Positions 54,628 through 57,151 of a stretch of DNA of 64,000 nt are shown piece by piece. Position 1 is the stretch's first letter; every line of letters starts with the position of its first letter. The notes under the pieces are model-generated. The model was not told the DNA's origin, searched no databases, and was given only the letters and a program-made list of their open reading frames with translations. This DNA comes from Guptibacillus hwajinpoensis. Lineage in GTDB: Bacteria > Bacillota > Bacilli > Bacillales > Guptibacillaceae. Both the position numbers and the translations under genes were made by a program. The stretch covers positions 62,001-126,000 of the forward strand of contig NZ_JAIVAE010000011.1 in assembly GCF_020171785.1 (NCBI RefSeq). The letters are read 5' to 3'.

Positions 54628-55428
54628 ATGTTAGGGTATAAACTTAACTGGTGCTCTTCAGCTTTATTAAAACCAGTTGTAAAGGAGTGCAACACTATCA
54701 ACTTTATTCAAAACAACCTAAAAAAAACTCTGTCAATGATCACTGCTATTGTTCTAACACTTGTACTAGCTATCATTCTCGTACAATTTCACTTTTTTAA
54801 CGAACAAGTTGCCGATGCGAAAACAACGGTTGGGGAGTTGGATCAAAAATCTTCCCAGAACGATCAGATCAAAACACAGACAGCGATAACTAGATTAGAG
54901 AAAGAAACGGGCTATTCACTCGGTACGCAATCAGTGAGTGTAGAAGAATGGAAACAAGCAAAAGCATACTCTGAGCAATTTTATAATGACAGTGAAGGAA
55001 AGTTTAACAAAAAGTGGGGGTTATTTCTAACTTACCAGTCAATGAAAGTAGATATTGATCCTGCAATTGCTTATGAGCTTCTAAAGGTAGAAACAGGTAA
55101 TACGTTTGATCCAGAGCTTATCGGTCCAGAAACAAAATATGGGCATGCGTATGGCATGGCTCAATTTATGAAGAATACCGCCCCGTGGATTGCTGATATG
55201 GCTGGTATTGACTACTCAGAAGAAAAATTATTTGACCCTTATTTTTCAATAACCCTTTCTGTCACTTATCTTGATTATCTTTATGACAAATATGATAATT
55301 GGGATGAAGCGCTGACGGCTTATAACCGTGGCATCGGTGGATTAAAAACCTATGTAGCAAATGAAGGAACACCTAGAAGTGGTTATTCAGACGAGATTCA
55401 AGAAATGGCTAGTAACCATGATATGTAG
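54628..55428 (+). CDS. Membrane-anchored lytic transglycosylase
   Basis: A 266-residue protein with one membrane segment (about 37-58) and an SLT-type lysozyme fold at about 130-260. The catalytic glutamate is in LLKVETGNTF, followed by GHAYGMAQFM and the closing AYNRGIGGLKTY. It would cut peptidoglycan glycan strands outside the membrane. The ATG at 54628 has AGAAAGG 11 bases before it; a second site, AAAGGAG at 54681, precedes an in-frame ATC at 54697, which would remove 23 residues. Confidence 0.87.
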   Translation: MLGYKLNWCSSALLKPVVKECNTINFIQNNLKKTLSMITAIVLTLVLAIILVQFHFFNEQVADAKTTVGELDQKSSQNDQIKTQTAITRLEKETGYSLGTQSVSVEEWKQAKAYSEQFYNDSEGKFNKKWGLFLTYQSMKVDIDPAIAYELLKVETGNTFDPELIGPETKYGHAYGMAQFMKNTAPWIADMAGIDYSEEKLFDPYFSITLSVTYLDYLYDKYDNWDEALTAYNRGIGGLKTYVANEGTPRSGYSDEIQEMASNHDM

Positions 55429-55465
55429 TTGAAATAGCACCTTCGCTTCGTTCATAATGGAAGCG

Positions 55466-55500
55466 AAAAAACCCTCTACTTTAAACTAGAGGGTTTTTTT
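55466..55500 (+). terminator. Terminator after the lytic transglycosylase gene
   Basis: AAAAAACCCTCTA pairs with TAGAGGGTTTTTT, with a second, smaller hairpin just upstream (TTCGCTTC with GGAAGCGAA). Confidence 0.88.
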
Positions 55501-55513
55501 GATGGTTTAGTAT

Positions 55514-56231
55514 TTATAAATAAGAAAATGGATTCTGCATTAATTTTTGTTGACTATTAATGGGGGGTTCATTTGTATTTCTTTCAACATAGTGATAAAT
55601 ACCATTACTATCCTGAACTCTTGCTTTCTCATTATCCTTTAGAATCAGGTCTAACGTTAATTTTACTTTTTCCTTTAAATTGGATTGGAGTATAGGAAAT
55701 AAGATTTCAATTCGCTTATCCATTCGTAAAAGCTCCAAAAGGAAAACTGTGGTAATGCTTCATTTGACGATTTTCTAAATAAGTGATTTCCGTACTGCCT
55801 CCACCTATATCAATTGTATAGCCATCTTGAAGGTTTGTGGACTAAATGACAGAAAGATAACCGTAGTAAGCTTCTTCTTTTTCACTTAGAATGTTAACTT
55901 TGAAATCTGTTTCATTCTCTATTAATCCCATAATCGCACTTCGGTTTTTCGCTTGTCGGACAGCTGCAGTTGCAATTAAGTTAACTGTTTTTAAGTCATA
56001 CGATCTTGTGACGGTTTGGAAGTGCTGCAAAGTCGTGAGGATGACATTTAAACCTTCTGGATTAATTGTTAAGTCTTCTTCAAGATAGGAGCGCAAACGA
56101 GCTGTAACTTTGAGATTTTGTTCTTCCTGTAATTCACCGAATGAATTTAATTTATAGATAACAAGCCGAATCGTATTGGATCCCATATCGATGACAGCAT
56201 AATAAGATTTTCGAGACAAGGTGAAATTCAT
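55514..56231 (-). pseudogene. ppx-ppk deletion scar (exopolyphosphatase front joined to polyphosphate kinase tail)
   Basis: From 56231 the frame encodes the start of an exopolyphosphatase (Ppx/GppA): YAVIDMGSNTIRLVIY near residues 11-26. After 129 residues a TAG (55842-55844) stops it. The same frame then continues with TIDIGGGSTEITYLE, again Ppx, to SFPFGA near 55740. From there a different frame, up to 55514, reads MDKRIEILFP, DNEKARVQDSNGIYHYV and PPINSQQ, the C-terminal tail of polyphosphate kinase Ppk1. So roughly 350 residues of Ppx and 600 of Ppk are missing. It cannot make either enzyme. Confidence 0.88.
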
Positions 56232-56299
56232 TTCTAAAAATGAATTTTGTTTTCATTATACATGAAGATGAAAAAGGGAAGTGACATCGGTATTTTAAA

Positions 56300-56329
56300 T
56301 TTACAAACACTCCTGATGTCATGTATACT
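56300..56329 (+). promoter_or_regulatory. SigA-type promoter of znuC-znuB-zur
   Basis: TTTACA (56300-56305), 18 bases, TATACT (56324-56329). Confidence 0.65.
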
Positions 56330-56337
56330 ACATAATG

Positions 56338-56358
56338 TAAATCGTAATGATTCTTATA
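56338..56358 (+). promoter_or_regulatory. Zur box (partial)
   Basis: TAAATCGTAATGATT matches the left half and centre of the Bacillus Zur consensus (AAATCGTAATNATTACGATTT); the right half is diverged. It lies 9 bases after the -10 box, in front of znuC. Confidence 0.6.
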
Positions 56359-56374
56359 GATGGTAGGTAATAAA

Positions 56375-57151
56375 ATGAGTACTTCTAATAATTTAATTGA
56401 TCTTAAGGACATTTCTTTCCATTATGGAGATGGCAATGTACTAGAGGATATTACTTTCTCGATCCCTCAAGGGGCCTTTGTTGGATTGGTGGGACCGAAT
56501 GGATCTGGAAAATCAACTTTAATTAAAATTATCTTCGGTTTATTAAAAGCTCAAAAAGGTTCTGTTCATATTTTCGGTAAAAAAATGAGTAAATTTCATG
56601 ACTGGAGTAAGATTGGTTATGTTTCACAAAAAGCCAATAGTTTTAATTCTGGTTTTCCTGCTTCTGTTTTTGAAGTTGTTTCAATGGGACTGACAAGCAA
56701 ACTGGGTTTATTCAAATTTATGAAAACAAATGATCGTAAGGCAGTCATGGATGCTCTGCAATTAGTTGGAATGAGTGATTTTGCATCCAGTAATATTGGG
56801 GAACTTTCAGGCGGCCAGCAACAACGGGTATTTATTGCAAGAGCATTGGTCAGTCAACCGGAAATCCTGATTCTTGATGAACCGACAGTAGGAGTAGATG
56901 CGAATTCTACAAGTGATTTTTATGAGCTTCTCGGTAAGCTGAATAAGGATAATGGGATTACCTTATTGCTTGTTACACACGATATCGGAACGATTACGGA
57001 CAAAGTGACGCACGTTGCTTGTCTAAACAAAACGCTTCATTTTCATGGAGAAACGAATGAATTTGAACAGTTTAATGAACGTGAATTATCAGGTTTTTAT
57101 GGCCATCATGTTCATGTATTAAGTCACGATCATGATCATGGAGGCTTTTAG
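56375..57151 (+). CDS. znuC: Zinc ABC transporter ATP-binding protein
   Basis: Powers high-affinity zinc import. The 258-residue ATPase has Walker A GPNGSGKST, the LSGGQQQR signature, and Walker B ILILDEP. Its tail is histidine-rich (HHVHVLSHDHDHGG), suited to binding zinc. I chose the ATG at 56375, after GGTAGG. znuB follows after 3 bases and zur after that, but no znuA binding protein is nearby. Confidence 0.93.
   Translation: MSTSNNLIDLKDISFHYGDGNVLEDITFSIPQGAFVGLVGPNGSGKSTLIKIIFGLLKAQKGSVHIFGKKMSKFHDWSKIGYVSQKANSFNSGFPASVFEVVSMGLTSKLGLFKFMKTNDRKAVMDALQLVGMSDFASSNIGELSGGQQQRVFIARALVSQPEILILDEPTVGVDANSTSDFYELLGKLNKDNGITLLLVTHDIGTITDKVTHVACLNKTLHFHGETNEFEQFNERELSGFYGHHVHVLSHDHDHGGF

Follow-up and report, generated by a model that had tools for sequence, protein, structure and literature searches.

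The loss of polyphosphate genes at scattered positions of the bacterial tree is an already described phenomenon, stated in a survey of 944 proteomes, which adds that such losses may depend upon niche (PMC5932413). A second study reports both ppk and an exopolyphosphatase gene in all three strains of Bacillus coahuilensis (PMC4744853). The locus described here resembles the cases in the survey in being a scattered loss of polyphosphate genes, except that the survey scores presence or absence per proteome, whereas here the breakpoint and several separate losses within one genus can be followed at the level of single bases. Intact counterparts are found, for example, in Alkalihalophilus pseudofirmus OF4 (L092) and Pseudalkalibacillus spartinae (L032), which have the same slt and znuC neighbors in the same order and orientation as our locus. 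Both of these carry full-length genes, whereas ours keeps only the start of ppx and the end of ppk. Our locus lies in a window of 64,000 nucleotides, which is the whole stretch of Guptibacillus hwajinpoensis DNA that we analyzed (its genome is referred to below as G000). We are almost certain that its slt-znuC interval is a gene-loss scar, combining a single deletion of ~3.02 kb, a nonsense change in the ppx remnant, the lack of a second copy, and a late date of loss.

Both ends of the gene pair are recognizable in the interval. A sequence-only reading had proposed that Ppx sequence lies on both sides of a TAG in one and the same frame, and profile searches agree. On the minus strand, the piece 5' of the stop (55845-56231) matches the TIGR03706 exopolyphosphatase profile (E 9.2e-35) and PF02541 (E 7.8e-16), while the piece 3' of the stop (55719-55841), with the frame unchanged, matches the same two profiles at E 2.7e-9 and E 2e-6, respectively. 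Both pieces score under the TIGR03706 cut-off of 307 bits, and there is no complete Ppx open frame, as only positions 14-145 of the 285 in PF02541 are represented and one TAG falls inside them. The Ppx sequence aligns at 95% identity with residues 1-165 of the protein from G009, the closest relative with intact genes, and the remnant (56219-55725, minus strand) corresponds to the 5' third of an exopolyphosphatase gene. The same reading had assigned the frame at 55514-55738 to the C-terminal tail of Ppk1, which was confirmed by matches of the piece at 55517-55738 to PF13090 (PP_kinase_C, E 1.6e-11, profile positions 116-172 of 172) and to the NF003920 polyphosphate kinase profile (E 1.6e-16, positions 626-688 of 719). 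This piece also aligns with residues 632-700 of the G009 PPK at 96% identity, and these three results together rule out a chance match. The best matches among solved structures were likewise polyphosphate kinases, albeit weak (E 0.0036 at best). The main body of PPK1 is missing, since codons 1-631 of 700 are absent relative to G009 and no PF02503 match exists genome-wide.

The proposed fusion of the two genes also stood, though not at its proposed position. The join had been placed at ~55740 with a PPK frame from 55738, but the last base with Ppx homology is 55725 and the first with PPK homology is 55723. That a TTG opens the frame at 55738, upstream of the junction, is due to chance. Similarly, a Ppx N-terminus had been read from 56231, and its identity as Ppx was correct, whereas its start was not, as neither G009 nor G010 has the ATG at 56231 and ppx in both starts with a TTG corresponding to 56219-56217. 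It should be noted that the purine-rich, RBS-like stretch just upstream of ppx (56219-56235) is altered relative to G009, G010, and G007, and that the new ATG lies 12 bases upstream of the TTG start of these three genomes, none of which has it. These two changes either arose by chance or are another sign of decay. The features of the interval are collected in Table 1, in which the names of both border genes are presumed.

Table 1. Layout of the slt-znuC interval of G. hwajinpoensis (positions are those of the window).
Feature	Position	Strand	Basis and remarks
Left neighbor, presumably slt (lytic-transglycosylase-like gene)	54628..55428	+	ORF
Terminator-like hairpin 3' of the ppk end	55465..55497	-	Stem with AACCCTCTA / TAGAGGGTT, then a T run; read from the letters
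ppk1 remnant, last 69 codons and stop	55514..55723	-	PF13090, NF003920, alignment with G009 PPK
Junction base	55724	-	Fits neither G009 flank as placed; an added or changed base (alignment)
ppx codons between stop and junction	55725..55841	-	TIGR03706 and alignment; last codon is G009 Ppx residue 165
In-frame TAG within ppx	55842..55844	-	Sense codon at this position in the 5 intact congeners compared
5' portion of ppx, beginning where G009/G010 have their start codon	55845..56219	-	TIGR03706, alignment
Right neighbor, presumably znuC (metal ABC transporter ATPase)	56360..57151	+	ORF

When the intervals were aligned, a single gap of 3,023 bp, found both against G009 and against G010, was sufficient to explain the join, which agrees with the one deletion of ~3 kb originally suggested. 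Missing relative to these genomes are all ppx codons from 166 onward, the 90-bp gap, and ppk codons 1-631, and the two remnants are in different frames. Relative to its near relatives, G. hwajinpoensis has lost most of both genes in a single deletion of ~3.02 kb. Comparing two 50-bp windows at the breakpoints in G009, taken as a stand-in for the parent sequence, yielded a longest common word of 5 bp, located away from the join. Because there is no long repeat at the deletion ends, the deletion probably arose through illegitimate recombination. Nonsense decay had been thought to follow the deletion; there is one stop, the TAG in the ppx remnant, and this nonsense change could have come before the deletion or after it. 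Outside of the two remnants, a hairpin similar to the one downstream of ppk is present in the aligned G009 and G010 intervals, and a simple terminator scan reported 0 terminators, this hairpin being passed over as well. Between ppx and znuC, the stretch at 56300-56360 resembles a zinc-regulator (Zur) box, and this candidate is kept in all seven of the empty congener intervals described below.

We examined the same interval in a sample of 14 genomes of the genus, consisting of G000 and 13 congeners (G001-G013). The slt neighbor was present in all 14 and znuC in 13 (at E<=1e-60), while 5 of the 13 congeners have an uninterrupted Ppx match and 6 have a PPK1 C-domain (PF13090) match. Both borders could be compared in 12 congeners, with G004 left out: five of these have ppk and ppx between the borders (G001, G006, G008, G009, and G010) and seven have neither gene there (G002, G003, G005, G007, G011, G012, and G013). 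The gene order and orientation in the near relatives is slt> <ppk <ppx znuC>, and the interval spans 3,941-4,068 bp where both genes are kept, 934 bp in G. hwajinpoensis, and 213-405 bp where it is empty. As for G004 (L144), ppk is followed shortly by the end of the contig, and no znuC turned up at E<=1e-60; a gap in the assembly or a rearrangement could be the cause. We therefore rejected its missing ppx as evidence of loss and counted this genome among those with the pair on the strength of its ppk. In G008 (L128), the slt homologue has one TAA inside the match, and its longest open frame from a start codon is 207 codons.

Among the empty intervals, that of G007 (245 bp) retains only the pre-ppx region, the ppx start codon plus the codon behind it, and the hairpin downstream of ppk. 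As in the scar, slt and znuC are joined and the pair is gone; unlike in the scar, nearly the whole pair is gone, the breakpoints are other ones, and the genome falls outside of the group formed by G000, G009, and G010. These three make up one side of a split with a support of 100 in the DNA tree and 93 in the protein tree, and the G007 loss is therefore separate from that of G000. A deletion common to both is ruled out by the trees together with the different breakpoints, and the interval of G007, which comes from the sister lineage, was emptied by a different deletion. In the remaining six empty intervals, nucleotide and protein searches for remnants of the pair (E<=1) returned only short matches of E 0.058 or weaker, none of which we take for a remnant.

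Outside of the genus, we compared 15 loci, drawn from 80, in which slt is followed by znuC at >=50% identity. Six contain both ppk and ppx in the interval (L050, L051, L065, L085, L092, and L097), one contains a short ppx alone (L064), and eight contain neither gene. Whole-genome searches found PPK1 in 7 of these 15 genomes, namely the six with the pair plus Salsuginibacillus halophilus (L091). In the latter, slt adjoins znuC without the pair and ppk and ppx are neighbors at another place in the genome; the pair has moved and is not lost. The short ppx belongs to Evansella clarkii (L064:10803-11973) and is an uninterrupted Ppx-like gene with a 314-codon frame, alone in its interval, and no PPK1 match was found in that genome. 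Overall, relatives with ppx-ppk between slt and znuC, which the sequence-only reading had proposed to look for, do exist both within the genus (5 of the 12 congeners in which both borders were compared) and beyond it (6 of the 15 loci). Since the slt-ppk-ppx-znuC order is intact in 5 of 13 congeners and 6 of 15 other-genus loci, it is an old one. In a sample of 120 genomes of the order, 77 have a PF13090 match, many of those added to the strong ones being weak and one being the scar fragment of G. hwajinpoensis itself; 23 matchless genomes are absent from the result rows. By row count, a strong PPK1 match (E 4.3e-65 or better) occurs in 64 of the 120, and PPK1 absence is thus common in the order.

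The number of losses depends upon what the genus ancestor carried. Under Dollo parsimony, with the ancestor assumed to have the pair and the protein tree rooted with six other-genus loci, there are five losses among the 14 species (G000, G007, G005, the G002-G012-G013 group, and the G003-G011 group), and the DNA tree gives 5 to 7, depending on which of the tried rootings is used. Two nodes around G008 are uncertain, as the position of this genome has a support of 94 in the DNA tree but 48 in the protein tree, which also places it elsewhere. From this count, the ppk-ppx pair would be dispensable in the genus and its interval would have been emptied about five times. Alternatively, the ancestor might have been without the pair, which was then gained repeatedly by interspecies exchange, with the scar recording the loss of a recent gain. 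By our own count, unordered parsimony requires only three gains and the G000 loss in this case, which is fewer steps than five losses, and a strong PPK1 match is missing in about half of the sampled genomes of the order. However, the place and orientation of the pair are identical in Alkalihalophilus, Halalkalibacter, and Salipaludibacillus, and the ppk and ppx trees agree with the species trees except for the order within the G001/G004/G006 trio. We consequently give repeated gain little chance and favor repeated loss of an ancestral pair.

In the genome of G. hwajinpoensis, a 4.24-Mb draft of 35 contigs with a completeness given as 100, the scar was the sole match to both PF02541 (Ppx-GppA) and PF13090, and the PF02503 (PPK1) and PPK2 searches had no match. 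PPK2 is absent from all 14 genomes of the genus, which, together with the lack of another PPK1 in this genome, rules out a compensating second polyphosphate kinase. With no second copy of Ppx/GppA, PPK1, or PPK2 found in the draft, the genome contains no recognizable PPK1 or PPK2 for polyphosphate synthesis and no recognizable Ppx/GppA for its breakdown, and the cell would hence be unable to carry out either process by these routes. The suggestion that this lineage had lost polyphosphate turnover at this locus therefore holds at the gene level. These searches also bear upon the possibility that the strain has an intact pair whose two ends are wrongly joined in the contig. The assembly is indeed a draft of 35 contigs, and the G004 contig end beside the interval, with znuC not found at E<=1e-60, suggests that the region can be difficult to assemble. 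Still, such an artefact is highly improbable, as the junction is inside a 163-kb contig, no further Ppx or PPK1 piece was found on the other contigs, and the in-frame stop of the ppx remnant would not be a product of misjoining.

The genuine deletion that we favor looks recent, judging from the comparison of homologous bases. The flanking genes of G000 are 98.16% identical to those of the intact G009 and 97.33% identical to those of the intact G010 (11,031 aligned bases each), and 96.25% identical to those of the empty G007 (10,968 bases). On the G000 branch, the 233 codons of the scar show 8 nonsynonymous changes, with the stop counted in, and 15 synonymous ones, which differs strongly from the neutral expectation (a nonsynonymous fraction of 0.70-0.79; P 7e-6 to 5e-4) and is indistinguishable from the 7:14 counted for the equivalent codons along the branches of G009 and G010 (P 1.0). 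The substitution rate of the scar on the G000 branch is also not significantly raised (P 0.20). The scar ratio is higher than that of the flanking genes on the same branch (17:123, P 0.010), but the intact ppx is loosely constrained as well (23:38 over the full gene between G009 and G010). Because most of the changes arose under constraint, inactivation, and with it the deletion, would have happened late on the G. hwajinpoensis branch. A recent loss had been claimed from the outset, and both the 98.16%-identical intact relative and a substitution pattern unlike that of a long-dead gene uphold it; apart from the stop, post-loss decay is invisible. Within the ppk remnant (55514-55723), there are 11 changes in 207 bases on the G000 branch, 8 of them synonymous, compared to 2 on the G009 branch and 2 on the G010 branch, and this excess is perhaps the result of exchange with a more distant allele. 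We give almost no credence to the remnants being kept as functional short genes, for instance a truncated Ppx or a peptide with a regulatory role encoded by the 74-codon PPK-tail frame. Although that frame is open and the 8:15 ratio is without a neutral-drift signature, recent loss accounts for this ratio given the equal 7:14 in the intact G009 and G010 genes, the Ppx piece is interrupted by a stop and spans half of the PF02541 profile, and nearly the whole pair is gone in G007, so the gene ends are unneeded there.

Our literature search found no description of this particular loss, which is not proof of it being unpublished. The scar is a new and well-resolved example of an already known kind of event, i.e. 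ordinary repeated gene loss. It is conceivable, though we consider it unlikely, that selection rather than drift is behind the repeated loss, with a shared shift in habitat or in phosphate or zinc handling making polyphosphate turnover costly in this genus. If so, an interval beside a zinc uptake operon would have been emptied repeatedly and G. hwajinpoensis would have been caught just after the event. PPK1 is a widely studied stress and persistence factor, and despite this role, the free-living spore-formers examined here seem to drop it repeatedly. Species this close, some lacking the pair (G000 or G007) and some keeping it (G009 or G010), offer nearly equal backgrounds and would be well suited to testing polyphosphate function.
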